Source: Antonospora locustae (taxonomy: Eukaryota; Microsporidia). Taken from it: 64,000 nt of DNA. The notes under the pieces are model-generated. The model had not been told where the DNA came from and did no database searches. It saw only the letters and a program-made list of their open reading frames with translations. The stretch spans positions 62,001 to 126,000 of the forward strand of contig CM017449.1 of NCBI GenBank assembly GCA_007674295.1. The letters are read 5' to 3'. Of the stretch, positions 5,044 through 62,235 are shown piece after piece. The number at the start of each line of letters is the position of its first letter. Positions within the stretch are counted from its first letter, which is position 1. A program made the position numbers and the translations under genes.

Positions 5044-5443
5044 ACAAAAGTAATGGCGCATTAACATATCTTGAAGCTTTCATTCACAGCATAATAATAA
5101 ACTAAATATTTCTGTGAACATGAGTGCGCAGCAAATGGTGAGACACAAATTTACAAAGACGTTTTACTAAGGATTTCGTGGCAAGATAATCGTAATAAAA
5201 TTTTACATAAAAAAGGATGATGATATGATATAACATATATGAATATCTATATAAATGGCATTATTACAGCAAAAAAAAACAAAAAGATGGTATTAAGCTT
5301 TTAGAAAGTTATGTTCTATATTTAGAGTATATTTTTTAAAGTTACACTTTATTAATGTTTCCATATTAGAAAAGTTCCCTAAGGCGTCCCGCCCAGCTGC
5401 AGCTTATTATTGTCATATATATTCATTACATTTAAGTTTATAG

Positions 5444-5653
5444 ATGATCTTGTACGATAGCCATACCCTGGTGTATGTTGCTCTTCGGGTAATAACTACA
5501 TGCAGGAGGATAGCTGTTGCCACCAATGTGTGTAGAAGATCAGCTGTATCCGCACTACCTATGAGCATTAACATCATAATGTGTGTTTTGGTATGTTATG
5601 GCTTTTGTATATCTATTAATAAAGATAAAAAATTATCCAAGAATACATATTAG
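5444..5653 (+). pseudogene. Remnant ORF of a dispersed coding repeat
   Basis: A 69-codon open frame with an ATG, in DNA of visibly higher GC than its flanks. Its centre (RVITTCRRIAVATNV) matches the reading frame at 18131 (RVITAHRKVTVAISV) and, on the minus strand, the frame at 17602-17405 (FRKIVGHRKVVSTIV). The nucleotide sequences align too, for example from GCCATACCC near 5460 to GATCAGCT near 5540. After the conserved part both this copy and the 18.1-kb copy run into a hydrophobic tail. I do not recognise the parent protein. Shared sequence with independent decay suggests fragments of an old multicopy gene or mobile element rather than a living gene. Confidence 0.55.
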
Positions 5654-14600: not shown

Positions 14601-16881
14601 AATTTGGAAAATAGATTTTATAACTTATTCATATTTTGTTTATAGTATTGATGCCTGCTTGACATTTGTTTTAACTTTTTATTGACTCATATACTCAAAG
14701 TCAAGAGTTATTAGACTTTTAATCGATATATAATATTTTAAAATCTAGAAACTTAAAGTTTTCATAAATTTAGAATATTGGTGGTAAATAAAAAGGGTTT
14801 ATAAAGAGCTATTTCGTTTTAATATTTTATATTTAGTAATAATCTTTATTTACCGGGTAAAAGTAAAAAGGATTTTTATAAATTTTTTTAAGCTTAAATA
14901 TTCAGTAATTAAAAACATGAATTTAAATCTTAATCCTACTTCTTGAATACACTTTATATAATTAAATATTATACTATATAATACTGTGAAATTGTTATTT
15001 TTAACTAATAAATAATAACTACAATATTTGCTGTATTCACTGTAATATAAAGGTTAAAAATAAGTGTTAATTAAATAAGTCTAATTTAATATAGATAATG
15101 TAAAAAATAGATATAACATATTAACATAAGTAAAGTTATTAGTTATATCAGAATATGTTAAAGCCTTTAACAATGAAAATTAAGGGTATGTTAATCTGCA
15201 TAAGTATAATAAGAGAACTTTCACACTTGTTAGGATTTAACTGTTACATTAAAAATATATAAACAGTAAGCTATAAAATAAAAAAATAGAAATACATGAC
15301 ATAATAACTAAGTAAACATAGTAATTATTTTTTACAAGATATTTAAAGTAAAAGGATATTATTTATAATAATAAGTTTTATATTTTTAATTTGATATTAT
15401 GTAAAAAGTACTGTTATATTATGCATTGAAGAACTGAAAGTGTATAGGTTTTGTTTAAATAATAAAATAAAAGTAAATCAATTGATACATAACATATAAT
15501 AATTAAAAACAAATGTTAAAAAAATAGGAGTTTGATAATATTCTTTTATTGATAAAAAATTACATTAAATAAACTTTACTAAAATGTTATTATTTATTTT
15601 GACAAATTTGTTTGTCTAAGTTTTGGTTTATAATGTAAAATAGTATATTTTCTATTTTTTCAGATGTAAATTTTTATAAATCTATTAAAGAGAACAAATG
15701 TTTTTGCTTGTTATATCTAACTTATCTTAAATACATTATTAATTCACATAATATTTTACAGTGCAGTGTTTATAATATTGTTCAACTTCTTATATATCAT
15801 CAAATGTAAAGCTAATCATTCTGCATATATGTATATAAATTATTTTCATTTTTTATTTTTCTAATAATATTGAATATATAAGTAATTCACAAAAATAAAG
15901 ATAAGGTATTCAATACAAGACTATACAAATATTTTTTTATGACAATACCATTTTATTAATTTACAATTCTAGTTATATCTACCTAAAATGAAATTGATTT
16001 TATTAACGTTATTCCTAAAATTAGAAAATTTCATATCAAAGCGTACTAGTCTATTCATCGTAAAGCTTGCATTTTTTCGTCGAAAGTGTAGTAATACATG
16101 ACACACTAGATTATAAAAGAAGAAATTGTAGTTATAGAGAGAAACTTGCTTTTTTCTTAGAGGTTTTATTAAAAAATACTTATGTTATATAAAAAACAGC
16201 TTTTCATTCTCCTGTGTACTGTCCTTTAGTTGTATAAGTACATTTAAGTAAAATTATTAGAAATGATTACTACTGCAAACCGAAATGCAACAAGCACAAG
16301 GTTGACCCTAACTCTGTGACATTTTAGAGGAAACATTTCTAAATAGAAATATAAAAAAAGTTGTTACATTAAAGAATTTTAATAAAGTTTTACGAAAAAA
16401 ATTATGTTGTTTTTATATTATGTTCAAAACATATATTCAGATTAATTTAGAACTCCACATAATTTAATGTTTTTTATATTAGTTAATTAAAAAATGGTAA
16501 AGATGTTCTTTTAATATTTATAGAAACTCTATTGGTTCTTAATTTAATTACTTGTAATATTGTGTTTTAATTAATTATTACGTAGTTACTATTTTGAACG
16601 TTTTTAATTACTATTTATTTTTCGTATTAATAATTCACTTATGTAAAAATTAATCATAATTTTGAAACTTATCTTTTTAATTAATCTCAAATGTTGCTAA
16701 ACAATTTATTTAAAATATTAAATTATATAATTATTTTATCAAAAACGTAATCTAGTTGCATCGGTAAATATAATAACTTCTTAAAAATAAAGTAATGTAT
16801 AAACAAAGGATGTGATTACGCTTCTTTTTTAAGGTAACAGTTTTATTAATATTTTCGTTTATGAATGCTTTTTAAGTAGTC

Positions 16882-17154
16882 CTAGCCGGTTGAGGCACAC
16901 TGTTTGCAACAGTTATTCTTATTTTGATGAAGTGAGAATGTGAAAGCCTTCAGATTCTTTAGAATTACGACCTCCTTCTGGTTTTTCTTATAGTACGGAG
17001 AAACCAGTTTGTCTTACGTTGTCACATAAAATCCATAGATACCTGTATATGTTGTTCTCTTCATCACAACAACAAGAGGCTTATACTTACGAAATTTCAA
17101 AATCTCAACTACTTGCAACTTCTCAAAGAAGTTACCCACACACACGATAGTCAT
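16882..17154 (-). pseudogene. Decayed ORF with one internal stop, unknown family
   Basis: Read on the minus strand from ATG at 17154, a frame of 90 sense-like codons runs to TAG at 16884-16882 and is interrupted by a single TAA at 17016-17014. Both halves have protein-like composition (Lys, Val, Phe, with a Cys-Cys pair near the end) quite unlike the random frames nearby, and the GC content is higher than the flanks. The last residues (CASTG, stop) recur as CAATD, stop on the minus strand near 22.2 kb. I do not recognise the family. A sequencing error or stop readthrough could also explain the single TAA. Confidence 0.55.
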
Positions 17155-17404
17155 TTAGTTAATTCCTTATCTTGCATATAAAAACATATGTAAACAAAAT
17201 ATTTTTAGAACTTAAATGTGAAATTAAAATCTAAAAAAGCGTTAAGATATTTATTAACAATTTTTACTTCCAATTTTCTGATGGAATATTTTATTATAAC
17301 GTAACGAATATCATATATAACTATTTTACAATTTCTTAATAGAAATTTTATTTTTGTAGTTTATTTATATAACAATTTTAAAATATTATAACTTATTACA
17401 TAAG

Positions 17405-17602
17405 TTATAATATTCTTAAAAAGGAGCTAAGTGTAGCTGATCCACTAGACACAATGGTTGAAACAACCTTCCTGTGTCCAACAATTTTTCGGAAGGCAAC
17501 AATACCATAAGGGATGGCCTCTTTATAAAAACATCTACAAATTAAGGTGTAAAGGGCACAAGGTAGGCCATAACCGTGTGATGCATTAGAAATCGTTTCC
17601 AA
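17405..17602 (-). pseudogene. Remnant of the dispersed coding repeat, no ATG
   Basis: The frame is open for 65 codons but has no ATG at its 5' end; the first codon is TTG. It contains YGIVAFRKIVGHRKVVS, which lines up with the frames at 5444-5653 and 18131-18253, and the nucleotide alignment extends about 100 bases. It lies just upstream, in the same orientation, of the decayed ORF at 16882-17154, so both may derive from one longer gene. The parent protein is not recognised. Confidence 0.5.
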
Positions 17603-20600
17603 AAGTGAAATATTAATAAAGCTGTTACTTTAAAAACCCCGTTGTAAGTGTAGTTGCGAGTCGAGGTTTATTAAATCTGATACTGTATACCATCTCCAAC
17701 TGGATTTTTCAAAATAAACACTTGAGTGTATAACAAAAACAAATATACTTTTTGAATAAAATACAATTAATATTCAATTTTATAGTTAAGAGCTGTATTG
17801 TACAATGTCATTAATAAAATATTGTTTTATAACAATATCATGTATTAAATAGCATTATTAACAAAACAAGATATAACACATAAAAAAAACAAGTATCCAT
17901 TAACAAGAAGCTACATCTAAATAGATATGGCTTTTAAAAATAAGATATATAGATTTATTTAAAACTAAATTTCTAAAAAACATATTTATTTGTCTATTTT
18001 TATGGAAATAGTTTTACTAAAATTAACCAAATGTTCTTAAAGTATTTCTGTGGTTACGTTTTATCATGTGTTGTGCACTTTTACTCATAAAAGACTTTAG
18101 ATTGACATTCACATGTAATTCGTTAATTACAGGGTAATAACTGCACACAGAAAAGTGACTGTTGCCATCAGTGTGCATAATGTGTCTGTCCTACAACCTC
18201 TTATGAATATATTTATTTATCCATTCTTTTGCTTCTTATTAAACCTTCTATAATAATTTACGATAAAATATTCAATTTAATTCATTATACATGAGAATTT
18301 ATTACAACTACTAACAACCAGTTTTTGTAATATAAAAAATCGCACTACACATTTTTTTACAATAAATTATTTTCTTTTTTAATAATAACAAAGTTTCTTA
18401 CTAACATATTTAATTAGAGAATTTTATGTATTTTTAAATTTATTTTAAATATATATGATATAACACTTTATGATAAAGACAAAAAATAGTATTTAAATTT
18501 AGTATCAAAAAAGTAGATAAAAATAAGTTATGCATATGTTTGTAACACAATATATTTTAGAATTTGAATAAGGTTCATGTAATAAAACTTTGATTTACTA
18601 TATTTATTTTAAAAAATTAATAGAAATTTTAGTTGATTTAAAAATAGTAAACTAAATTATTATACTAAAGTAATTTTCTGGTTAAAAACAAACATTGTTT
18701 TGATTTAATACACAATATTACCATAAATATGCAAGCTTATTAGTACTATAACTTTAAAATGTTTATGAAAACTTTAATTATTTTTTCATAGTATACATTT
18801 TTATCTATAGTATTAATATTTAAATTTATTGTTTAAAATAACAAATTTGACCCATTAATCATTTTTATGGTCCAAACTCTTATCTTCTCGGGAATCCCTT
18901 TTCGGTAATCTTTGGCCCAATCATATATGTACTCTCAGTAATTAAACATTAGTATTATATTATTCTTAAAGAATCTTTTATTTTAATTTAATACCGTATA
19001 AATTATTATTATAATCTGATAATAAAAATGTGACATTTGAAATACTTTAATAGAAATGCAATTTAAATATTTGAAATATATAAATATTTTTTGTAGATAA
19101 ATAAAGTTAATTCTGGTATAAATTTAAAAAAAAACTACTACCAATTTTTGTATCAAAAAATTTGTTTAAAGAATGATAAAAAAGATATGAATAAGGAACT
19201 CTTATTTATTTAGAAAGACCATTCTCATTATACTACAAAATGTTTATTGTTAAATATTCTGCTATTTAGTTAAAATAAATAACTGAAGACTTCAGAATAA
19301 ATTATTTTTATGCATTAATGTCAATATCATTGTTGATTCTTATTTCAACCTTAATTATTATTATATTATTGTTTTATAAAAAACAATAATTCCCATTATT
19401 AAAATGAACTAAAAACTTTAACAATATTAGATTCATGAATTATAAAATTAACAGTTTGATTCTAAATGAAAATAAACTAAAAATTTTACTAGTTAGGATA
19501 GTGGTATTTCTATTTTTCTCCTTTATGGTCTACATAAGATACATAATATCGAGAGAAGATTTTATCTAATAAAAATATATTTTTTAAAAGCTAACCCTAA
19601 CTGACATTTAATAACAATTAATTATGTCACGAGGAACACACAACTTGGAGAGATTTTCTAATTGAGTGTAAAGAGAAAGTTTAACCCTTGTTTGCCCGTG
19701 AAGACAAATAAAAAATAAAGAAATCCTCTTGTTTAATAACTAATAAAAGATTTCCCTTAATTAATATATAGAAATCTATTATGTAGAATGATTAAGTTTT
19801 AAATCTAAATTTACTTTACAAATAAATAATCTTAAGCACAAACAAGATTGTCTCCAACTAGCTTACTTAACAACAACCATTTTGGTGTATGGAGGGCAGT
19901 GTTCTTTAAAAATAAATATACATCTTAAGCACAAACAATTACAATTAAACAAGAAACATAAGTTATTTTATGCAAAACATGCAATATTAATTAAAGTTTA
20001 AAACTAGTTTTAATATAATGAAAATGAGTATGTCACTTTTATGAGAGTTACTTTCCAATGAGAAAAACAGGTAGTATTTTAATAATTATGAAATTATTCA
20101 AAAATAGGTCAAGCACTTTATTCTTTATTTAATTTCTGTATAAAGAAAGAAACAAGAACTATTTATAAAGCAAACCCTAACCTAACAAAACAATTAGAAT
20201 ATATCTAAATCGTATGATTATAAAAAAGATAAATTATAAGTAAAGTGATATTTCTTTGTCCCTATAAATATTTAAATTATTGATATATATTATGTTATTT
20301 TAACCACTACACTTTTTTATAACTGAAAAAGAGAGACTACTTAACTATTCATTATCTATTTTGTTTATGTATTTAAGTCATAAGGTCAATAACAACTTGA
20401 AATTTTCTTGGAGAAAATGTTTTGAATTTTTTATCTGATAATAATTTATTTAAAATATAGTAAAATAAAAATTTGGGAATTAGATATATTTTTCATTTTA
20501 ATTGGAATCGTTATTAGAAAGAAGAAAAAAGAGTTGGTTTTCTTAATAACTTAATTTTTCTAACAATTTATCTAAACTTGTGAGACTCTCATATTACTTT

Positions 20601-20666
20601 GTACAAAAAGTTTACAAATAAAGTGGAGAAATGTGAAAGGTTTCGCGTTTTTTTACTTATAATTTT
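17603..20666. other. AT-rich stretch without intact genes
   Basis: Same composition as 1-16881. It includes the 18.1-kb repeat copy and slightly richer patches near 17640-17700, 18870-18940 and 19840-19910. Short telomere-like words occur (CTAACCCTAAC at 19591-19601, CCCTAACCTAAC at 20175-20186) but never as an array. No gene can be supported. Confidence 0.7.
18131..18253 (+). repeat. Copy of the dispersed coding repeat
   Basis: Open for 40 codons to TAA at 18251-18253, reading RVITAHRKVTVAISV and then a hydrophobic tail. It has the same orientation as, and about 70% nucleotide identity by eye over 90 bases to, the copy at 5444-5653. An in-frame TAA lies a few codons upstream, so it cannot be a complete gene. 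Confidence 0.55.
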
Positions 20667-21066
20667 GTTTGTACTAAAAGTACAAACAAGAGCGGCTGAC
20701 TCTGCGAATGCAAAAGGTTCTCCTCCTACTAGAAGAGATAAAAATGAGAAGTGCTGTTTATTTTGACTTCGCCTACAGCCACCGAGTCAGGCTCTTCACA
20801 CCGGGACTTCCGTGTAGAGTGAGCATGATGCACGGAAGTCCACATGTGGGCGCTACTTAACCTGGGGGATTTTTCGCTGAATGGTTTCAGGGCAGACTCG
20901 GTGGCCGGCGTCCTTCTGGGCGGCTCTGAGGAAGCAGGCCCGCCGTTTTCAATGAACGTTTTTCAACGAATCACTGCTTTGGACAGCAGGGCATAGAACC
21001 CGGCATCAATCATAGTACAGAAGATCGTTTTACCGCTGGGTCCTACGCCCCAATTTATTTGGGCGA
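20667..21066 (+). ncRNA. Candidate structured non-coding RNA
   Basis: A block of about 50% GC surrounded by roughly 20% GC DNA, with no open frame. It is full of exact inverted repeats: a 9-bp hairpin at 20667-20687; an 11-bp stem pairing 20778-20788 with 20895-20905; inside it an 11-bp hairpin, 20804-20814 with 20831-20841; and a terminal hairpin 21046-21065 (CGCCC/GGGCG). 20691-20695 (AGCGG) can pair with 21033-21037. Two motifs hint at identity: 20918-20945 can fold as an SRP helix-8-like hairpin with AGCAG on its 3' side, and AGAACCCGGC at 20995-21004 resembles the CR-V core of RNase P RNA. The nested pairing fits SRP RNA slightly better, but neither is proven. The strand is inferred from those motifs. 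Confidence 0.6.
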
Positions 21067-23083
21067 GTGTATTTAAAACTGATTCAAGTGTAATCATTTA
21101 TTGTTTCATTTTTATAAATGAATTTTACGAATCAAAATACTTATTTGAATAAGCAAAATAACAATGAAATTTATTTAATGGGTCCTAAGATGCTTTAGAA
21201 AGGTTTCCAAACTGAAAATGTTAACATAAAAGCAGTTACCTAAAAAATAAAATTTATTTGTCTTAGTTAAAACGTTTTTATTAAAAAAAAAAGAATCCTA
21301 GGGATTCTAACTAGAACATTTACAAAGCAAAAATATATTTAGTTATCCTTTTTGAGTTAAAGTATTACTTTATATTGAGGCTGGAAAGAGTTCCATTATG
21401 AATTCTACAACTCTATGATGTATCACTACTGTATTACATAACACATTTTTATTTTTAAATAGCATTCACATTTCGACTTCAAAGTCTTTTTTTCTTTTGT
21501 GTCTCATTGCCTGAATATTTTTTATACGTTATTTTTACCAAACTATCAATGATAAACATGAGGGGGGTGTTCTACTCATTTAATGATATCCAAATATACA
21601 TTTTTAATTATGATAATCTATAAAGCAAATATCATAGTATGTATAAATGTAATTTTAATAATATGAGATAAAGATGTCTTTTGATGAACATGTATTTTTT
21701 ATTTATGACTTCTCTTAAGATTTCTTAATAAAACATTGCATAAAATTGTTAACGAATCAGTGCACTACCAATGCAAATTAACTAGAAAATATAAAAAGGG
21801 TGTTTTCTTCATTAAGTAGTATAATATTGTTACAAAGACAGAAAAGGTGTTTTTATTTAATGTGGTACCAGTTAGAGAAAGCTTTCATAATCAGGCTCAA
21901 ATAAAATTTCTAGGCTCTGCACTTATCTCCTCGCTTCGGCCAACTCCTACTAATTTTCATAAAAACCAAGCTTACATTAATATTTTTAATATTATTATAT
22001 AATTTAAATAAAAAACATAATCTTGTATTCTATTAGAATGTAATGTCAATAAAATAACAATTAACATTTTAAATATAATTTAAATAATATGTTTTTAGTT
22101 GCTGTTTTAATATTATAAAGAAACATACTTTTCATAGTAACAATTTAATTGACAAATGTCTTAATCGGTTGCAGCACACCATGTGTTGTTGTGCACATAT
22201 AGATTTATAGTAAATAAGCTCTAAAAATATTTTATGTTAGTGCATAAAAAAGCATAAATAAAATATTTTTAGAGTGTGAAGGTTATAAATCAAATTAAGT
22301 CTCTAACACGTATTCTACACAAGCAATCATTACTTTTGTAGAATCACTTAATTCTTGAAAATTCTTTCCATTGGTGGCATAGAGATATGTCTTTTTATTG
22401 TGAAATAACATTTATTGAAGGAAATAAAAGTAAATACAATTTACCAGTAAAAAGTTTCGTGCGGAAACTAGAAACCCTCACAAATGAAAATAACAATTAG
22501 CTTCATCGTAGAGCAAAACATTTATAGAATTAAATAGCATCCTGACAAAAGGGCTTCACAGAGAATCCTTTCTATAAAACGGCCAAGACAATATATTTAT
22601 CTACTAATCATATTTTATTAATGAAAACGTTTTTGTAGTAACTCGTGTCATTTACAAATTTTGATTTAGGATTCTAGTTTAACTTGTGAAAATGACACGT
22701 ATTATATATTCTAGTTAATTCATCTTTATTCACTATACGGGAACTCGTTTATAGCTAAAAAAAATCAGGTTGGTTACGACTTAAACTGCTTGTTCAATGC
22801 GTTGGTCTTTCTGTTTTCGTTAATTTTATTTATTTGATATTAGCACAAGCTGGATGTTGTAAAAAGGAGCTGTGCACGATGATGGAGAGATTTGAGTCTG
22901 ATGCTGAAGAAGGTGTCCATAATGCTTTTCATGTTTAAATGGATTTAACGAGAATTTTCTTTTTTAAACAAAACTGGATTAAGAGGGCGAGAAACACACT
23001 TTGTGGTGAATGACAAATACTTTTTGGAATGAAGCACATCTCCTAAAATGTGAAACCAAGAAGACCAGTGCACCTTTCCGAGA
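21067..23083. other. Transition zone, no convincing gene
   Basis: AT-rich sequence grading into the gene-dense core. It holds the short remnant near 22.2 kb and a 19-codon ATG frame at 22879-22938 in more balanced sequence just upstream of the first real gene. That frame is too short to call. Nothing else is recognisable. Confidence 0.6.
22150..22200 (-). repeat. Possible tail-end remnant related to 16882-17154
   Basis: The minus strand reads NNTW, CAATD and then a stop, in step with the last codons of the decayed ORF at 16882-17154 (NNCCKQ, CASTG, stop). The shared plus-strand words are CGGTTG and GCACAC. The match is too short to be conclusive. Confidence 0.3.
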
Positions 23084-51914: not shown

Positions 51915-51988
51915 TGTGCCGTCCCGGGATCGAACCGGGGCCCTCTCGCGTGTTAAGCGAACGTGATAACCACTACACTAACAGCACT
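51915..51988 (-). tRNA. tRNA-Val (AAC)
   Basis: The minus strand folds as a complete cloverleaf: acceptor GTGCTGT/ACGGCAC with one G-U pair and discriminator A, D arm GTG/CAC, anticodon stem TTCGC/GCGAG with loop TTAACAC (anticodon AAC), a 5-base variable loop, and T arm CCCGG/CCGGG with TTCGATC. It closely resembles other eukaryotic tRNA-Val(AAC). No intron. It has 74 bases, with one extra T between the D stem and anticodon stem. CCA is not encoded. Confidence 0.95.
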
Positions 51989-61893: not shown

Positions 61894-62235
61894 TCACAGC
61901 TCATGTTCGGGCGTGTCTGTACCCACAGGCCCGCACATTGCGCCAAGAAGGGCGTCATATCTTCGAAGTGCACCGCAGAGCTCGTCAAGTCGTGCAACCA
62001 GGTTTTCCGCATCGAAACTTTCCTTTTTCAACACCTCAAAAAATGCCTCCGCCCTGTTCAGAACATCCTGCTGCACACTAATTGACTTGAGCATACATTT
62101 AGGGTTGTCCGGCATCTTTGCGCTGACAATGTGCTCGACAACCTCGTTTATGACGTCTGCATACGTCTCGAGTGCGCGCACATGGCTACCAGACCTGATT
62201 GCCTCGCAGAGCTCACCGTACCTTTCCTCCCTCAT
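61894..62235 (-). CDS. Hypothetical helical protein
   Basis: A 113-residue, wholly helical protein with no recognised family. The ATG at 62235 has CCCCC seven bases upstream in its own strand, whereas the longer frame lacks an ATG, so I use the shorter form. It is convergent with the GLTSCR1-like gene and lies downstream of, and parallel to, the eS25 gene with a 60-bp gap. Confidence 0.55.
   Translation of the reverse strand: MREERYGELCEAIRSGSHVRALETYADVINEVVEHIVSAKMPDNPKCMLKSISVQQDVLNRAEAFFEVLKKESFDAENLVARLDELCGALRRYDALLGAMCGPVGTDTPEHEL

Follow-up and report, generated by a model that had tools for sequence, protein, structure and literature searches.

What kind of sequence forms a compact GC-rich island in AT-rich DNA that holds no recognizable gene? 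We examined such an island in a 64,000-nucleotide stretch of Antonospora locustae DNA (the window; positions 62001 to 126000 of contig C3 in a genome of 3,170,203 bases on 17 contigs). The GC content of positions 20667 to 21066 was 0.505, compared with 0.212 to the left (18667 to 20666) and 0.261 to the right (21067 to 22900), which bears out the near-50% GC and AT-rich surroundings described in the original prediction. In gene regions elsewhere in the window, a GC content of 0.5 to 0.55 is normal. The predicted exact inverted repeats are also present: GCCACCGAGTC pairs 20778 to 20788 with 20895 to 20905 over 11 bp, GGACTTCCGTG pairs 20804 to 20814 with 20831 to 20841 over another 11 bp, and GTTTGTACT forms the 9-bp arms of a terminal hairpin (20667 to 20675 and 20679 to 20687). 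Dinucleotide shuffles contained a mean of 0.013 stems of at least 11 bp, and none of 1,000 reached the two observed.

The island belongs to a 452-bp unit in which the longest stop-to-stop runs are 60 codons on the plus strand and 77 on the minus strand; therefore, the unit has no convincing frame, as had been claimed. The description of the surroundings as a gene desert held equally well, as no open reading frame (ORF) of at least 100 amino acids was found in C3 from 57.9 to 84.9 kb, including window positions 1 to 22,944. Our preferred reading, in which we place slightly better than even confidence, is that the island is an orphan, lineage-specific structural-RNA gene of about 310 nt, read from the minus strand and present as two identical copies in candidate centromeres.

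Strand and fold of the island

We folded both strands in equal windows and compared the energies with those of shuffled sequences. For the whole 452-bp unit, the energy was -158.0 on the minus strand (z = -7.5) and -151.5 on the plus strand (z = -3.7). Across three windows, the minus strand gave z values of -7.5, -5.8, and -6.0, with 0 of 200 shuffles as stable in each, and the plus strand gave -3.7, -2.3, and -3.0 (as stable in 0, 0, and 1 of 200 shuffles). The island thus folds more stably than its shuffles, as is expected of structural noncoding RNAs, and the RNA-like folding suggested by the original prediction is supported. The energy difference between the strands (minus less plus) was -6.5 for the whole unit, against a shuffle mean of +12.1; no shuffle of 200 reached the observed difference, either here or in two further windows. 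For the 313-nt core, a window picked for the minus strand, 1 of 150 shuffles equaled the difference, and the z values for 20741 to 21052 were -6.06 (minus) and -3.33 (plus). The G-U pair count, at 9 of 91 pairs on each strand, has no power to tell the strands apart. Judging from these folding models, the minus strand is most likely the island's strand. That the plus strand also beats nearly all shuffles is a weak point of the RNA reading, as is a weak RNA polymerase III (Pol III) signature. None of the nine other GC peaks in this desert and a similar one on contig C8 (150-nt windows above 36% GC) had a comparable fold on either strand (z from +0.5 to -1.8).

The predicted RNA is arranged as a 5′ hairpin followed by a closed domain (Table 1). 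The nested TGCTGT/ACAGCA pairing noted in the original prediction proved real, with five of its six pairs making up the closing helix of the minus-strand fold. The closing pairs are nevertheless provisional because a longer-window fold gives a different closing helix. Both known copies are identical, and no diverged homologue was found in which covariation could be read.

Table 1. Features of the island and its surroundings (window positions unless a contig is named)
Feature	Position	Strand	Basis
Ultra-AT-rich gene desert, candidate regional centromere	1-22900; C3 ~57.9-84.9 kb		GC and ORF scans
452-bp unit	20664-21115 (C3:82664-83115)	-	100% identity to C8:91574-92025, inverted; abrupt stop at both ends
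Proposed RNA, ~313 nt	21052 to 20740; 5′ end uncertain, 21051-21068	-	Strand z tests, pair probabilities
TATA-like TTTTAAAT at -27	21071-21078	-	Chance expectation in such AT-rich DNA
5′ hairpin: outer helix of 14 bp (three G-U) and two inner helices	20988-21051	-	Outer pairs 0.71-1.0, mostly 1.0
Closed domain, 5-bp helix 20987-20983/20757-20753	20753-20987	-	Pair probability 0.72-0.83
Hairpin within closed domain	20950-20976	-	Pair probability 0.95-1.0
GC-rich hairpin; complement is the AGCAG SRP helix 8 look-alike	20919-20944	-	Pair probability 0.79-0.95
Long stem with exact 11-bp repeat 20895-20905/20778-20788	20770-20910	-	Fold, repeat test
Inner hairpin: 5 bp, 2x2 internal loop, exact 11-bp stem, 16-nt loop	20797-20848	-	Fold, repeat test
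T5 run past folded domain, possible Pol III terminator	20740-20744	-	Sequence
Terminal hairpin, 9-bp core (11 bp by eye), extreme end of duplicated unit	20664-20690		Sequence

Known RNA families and transcription signals

We searched Rfam with cmscan, using the whole 64-kb window at gathering scores and positions 20000 to 22000 at E values up to 10. At gathering scores, no Rfam family matched anywhere in the window. In 20000 to 22000, none of the SRP, RNase P, RNase MRP, or U3 classes matched at E values up to 10, and the best of the eight matches was to mir-74 (E = 0.16). The original prediction had proposed this check for SRP, RNase P, and MRP, and its outcome removes both named candidates. 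The prediction had leaned toward SRP RNA, which is countered by the missing match, by the better fold on the opposite strand, and by an SRP S domain with helix 8 elsewhere (RF00017; C14:104328-104437; 36.9 bits; E = 7.0e-8 to 8.7e-7; curated score, 70). Its RNase P alternative fails on the missing match and on a full-length nuclear RNase P RNA located on C13 (RF00009; C13:92307-92539; 81.5 bits; E = 1.6e-23; over the curated score). We therefore ruled out SRP and RNase P. The plus-strand motifs behind these suggestions, an AGCAG hairpin and AGAACCCGGC, are present in the letters but belong to the less stably folding strand. What is left standing of the earlier proposals is that the island could equally be a new RNA. 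The microsporidian origin that the prediction presumed also agrees with the data.

Elsewhere in the genome, RNase MRP RNA (RF00030) was found at C1:119073-119229 (77.4 bits; E = 1.2e-21) and a U6 gene was found on C3 at 143 kb, both over their curated scores. A U3 snoRNA candidate (RF00012) lies at C8:130787-130939 (32.3 bits; E = 2.2e-5; gathering score, 34), with a second, weaker match at C1:241253 (26 bits). Matches below the cutoff at E values up to 1 also occurred in control genomes, in 9 of 14 for SRP and in 5 of 14 for U3. The other loci are firm for RNase P and MRP; those for SRP and U3 are below their curated scores. The U3 candidate is followed by a T8 run, as if it were a Pol III product. 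We also ruled out RNase MRP and U3 for the island, given the missing matches, the MRP RNA on C1, and the U3 candidate on C8. Two further candidates were rejected. The snR30/U17 motif, AAACCAU, has a single occurrence on the minus strand; it lies in a small hairpin rather than an internal loop, and there is no Rfam match. The 5′ hairpin vaguely resembles tRNA A and B boxes; the sole tRNA that ARAGORN finds in the window is a tRNA-Val at 51915.

To evaluate the transcription signals, we used the genome's own small-RNA genes for comparison. The minus strand of the island has a run of at least four T residues after the putative gene and none inside it; an equally long T4-free run occurred in 601 of 2,000 shuffles. 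An all-AT octamer or TTTTTAAG lies near -25 to -30 in the RNase P, MRP, U3, and U6 genes, and these four of the five comparison genes also have CCCC just before the mapped start, at most about 7 nt away. Unlike these genes, the island start lacks CCCC. A T run lies a few bases at most from the ends of the RNase P, MRP, U3, and tRNA genes, and U6 ends about 5 nt before one. The order of TATA-like element, fold, and T5 run at the island (Table 1) resembles that of the RNase P, MRP, and U3 genes, though not beyond chance. Pol III transcription of the island is therefore a guess, as neither the T4-free run nor the octamer exceeds chance and CCCC is absent.

The duplicated unit and its AT-rich setting

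A genome search at E values up to 10 returned the inverted C8 copy (Table 1) as the sole other match to the unit, apart from the short terminal hairpin matching itself. When 126 kb of C3 was compared with 70 kb of C8, the 452 bp formed the single shared stretch at an E value of 1e-5, and the flanks of the two copies had no similarity at that threshold. We also modeled the long stem by covariance; run against 385,920 bases from 38 sources, this model found the two copies and their weak reverse matches only. Exact 16-mers of the unit in viral contigs (12 stretches) and genome contigs (14) were judged to be chance; the 38 sources took in 9 of these 26 loci. Copying of the unit thus appears to have taken place at the DNA level and to have taken in the upstream region; the unit would be either young or homogenized between the contigs. 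Both copies are located approximately 1.5 to 2 kb inside the right edge of their AT-rich block, in opposite orientations relative to that near edge.

The C8 desert extends from 70.0 to ∼93.7 kb and has no ORF of at least 90 amino acids. Both deserts span 24 to 27 kb, have mostly 18 to 25% GC, and are gene free, as is expected of regional centromeres. On the 15 other contigs, we sampled GC at 120 spots (mean, 40.2%), mostly each 20 to 25 kb, a spacing at which short blocks may escape. A GC content of 25% or less was measured at 18 spots, which formed exactly one run in 15 of 15 contigs, an arrangement that 3 of 100,000 label shuffles did equally well; the weakest contig was C9, with a single spot of 24% GC. 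One AT-rich block per chromosome, another expectation for regional centromeres, was therefore found in all 15 sampled contigs and, as one block each, in the parts of C3 and C8 that were read. The genome encodes a CENP-C cupin protein (C4:203336; E = 1.3e-7), and the window contains a weak Spc7 match below the curated score; together, these make a conventional kinetochore plausible.

The A. locustae genome described in 2020 by Chen and colleagues is reported to comprise 3,170,203 nt on 17 chromosomes, with a 25-kb ultra-low-GC region said to occur on 16 of the 17. The accessible text of PMC13174016 gives 18 scaffolds with a mean GC content of 41.6% for this species, proposes centromere-like loci for Microsporidia sp. 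MB, and mentions "similar regions in A. locustae," meaning local GC reductions as in fungal centromeres. With this likening of A. locustae low-GC regions to centromeres already in print, the desert counts as known, and we rejected it as a new discovery. The available portions of other studies report no GC-defined centromeres among the microsporidia studied (PMC12449221) and suspect subtelomeres as centromeres in Encephalitozoon (PMC10158259). No mention of the folded unit was found in the literature searched, which was accessible in part and did not cover the A. locustae genome paper.

The window has several other features. To the right of the island are coatomer, Rad50-like, SET, and DEAD-box genes. 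A MutS homologue in the window shares 90% and 88% identity with two contig proteins and 81% identity with a protein in a Menopon gallinae assembly, where it is flagged as contamination. Degenerate repeat relics occupy 16800 to 18210 and 5330 to 5610 in the C3 desert. Pieces of the former match C10:46375 and C6:119688 (76 to 86%); by eye, they have words in common with the latter and with C8:88430. At 1604 to 1756, the desert has a tandem repeat of 34 bp (4.5 copies; 98%).

Alternative explanations and related systems

Several other origins could be proposed for the island. It may be nonautonomous mobile or selfish DNA, SINE-like or hairpin ended, that was inserted in two deserts and lacks a host function, a reading to which we give a minor but real chance. 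The identity is sharply bounded at 452 bp within unrelated flanks, the abrupt end of the unit at a hairpin is compatible with a mobile unit too, and the C3 desert carries the degenerate repeat whose pieces recur on C10 and C6. However, there are only two copies in 3.17 Mb, and target-site duplications, terminal inverted repeats, and a poly(A) tail are all absent by eye; the unit thus did not show the multiplicity and the target-site duplications or terminal repeats that mark transposable elements. The folding also exceeds the expectation for a passive unit. It is unlikely that the fold is a by-product of an element acting at the DNA level, either a cruciform or a boundary bound by protein, close to where a centromere-like block ends. 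The similar distance of both copies from the right edge would suit such an element, as would the finding that both strands are more stable than shuffles, but a strand bias of folding is an RNA-like signature that is unexpected for a DNA palindrome. Moreover, the copies face opposite ways relative to the near edge, and the genome search places the unit in two blocks only. A recent gain of foreign GC-rich DNA or its misassembly into the contigs, as the contrast in composition and the identical copies might suggest, seems very unlikely given that the island's GC content is ordinary for the window's gene regions and that the C3 and C8 sites differ in flanks and orientation.

The least credible alternative is that the island encodes the organism's missing telomerase RNA. 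A telomerase reverse transcriptase gene is present (C2:199857-200231; E = 2.8e-22), and therefore, a template RNA should exist; the island RNA would be suitable in size. In a telomerase RNA, the template can pair with no fewer than about 1.25 repeats of the telomere. Against the repeats TTAGG, TTAGGG, TTAG, and TTAGGC, the longest template match in the unit was 5 nt for the minus strand and 6 nt for the plus strand, although the organism's actual repeat may differ from these four. No array of four TTAGG units was found, with a pattern that misses TTAGGG, and no telomere repeat was found at the 27 of 34 contig ends examined. Telomere-like AACCCTAAC words occur near the island at window positions 20171 to 20185 and, by eye, 19593 to 19601, and similar words occur on C10 (two), C11, and C12. 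The telomere-like motif CTAACCCTAACCTAA, allowing up to two mismatches, had five matches, compared with three for a reversed control, and was not taken as evidence.

Returning to the structural-RNA gene, we propose that the region from about 21052 to 20740 would be transcribed from the minus strand, possibly by Pol III. In the product, the 14-bp 5′ hairpin would stand apart from the closed domain, which would comprise two hairpins along with a long, branched stem, and the RNA would probably be protein bound. The two identical copies, housed in ultra-low-GC, gene-free, centromere-like blocks of C3 and C8, may have been born by DNA-level duplication of the 452-bp unit, which includes approximately 63 bp of upstream sequence, and their identity may reflect a young duplication or gene conversion. 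There is also a slim chance of a more specific role, namely, that of a centromere-resident structured RNA on two chromosomes, homogenized by centromere clustering, that would support the chromatin of centromeres or the assembly of kinetochores. If transcribed, the island would add a sizeable structured RNA without a known family to a eukaryotic genome that ranks among the most reduced, and two perfect copies in so reduced a genome would be unlikely to be idle. Their site inside centromere-like deserts could provide a handle on the location of microsporidian centromeres and on whether transcription takes place in them.

The putative RNA shares features with several known systems. Like the island, the RNase P and MRP RNAs of this genome (233 and 157 nt as matched here) are folded and have a T run after them, but both are on other contigs. 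A T run likewise follows this genome's U3 candidate, which sits elsewhere on C8. SRP RNA is of the same size class, and the island's plus strand allows an AGCAG hairpin to be drawn, whereas the island's fold is on the other strand. Pol III RNAs of the 7SK type have about 310 to 330 nt, a 5′ hairpin, and a U-rich 3′ end. The island is similar to them in its length, 5′ hairpin, and U-rich 3′ end, although cmscan gave no match and homology is not shown. The setting, in turn, is comparable to the AT-rich regional centromeres of fungi and to the A. locustae low-GC regions in the accessible text of PMC13174016, which likewise are low-GC, gene-free blocks of approximately 25 kb, one per contig.
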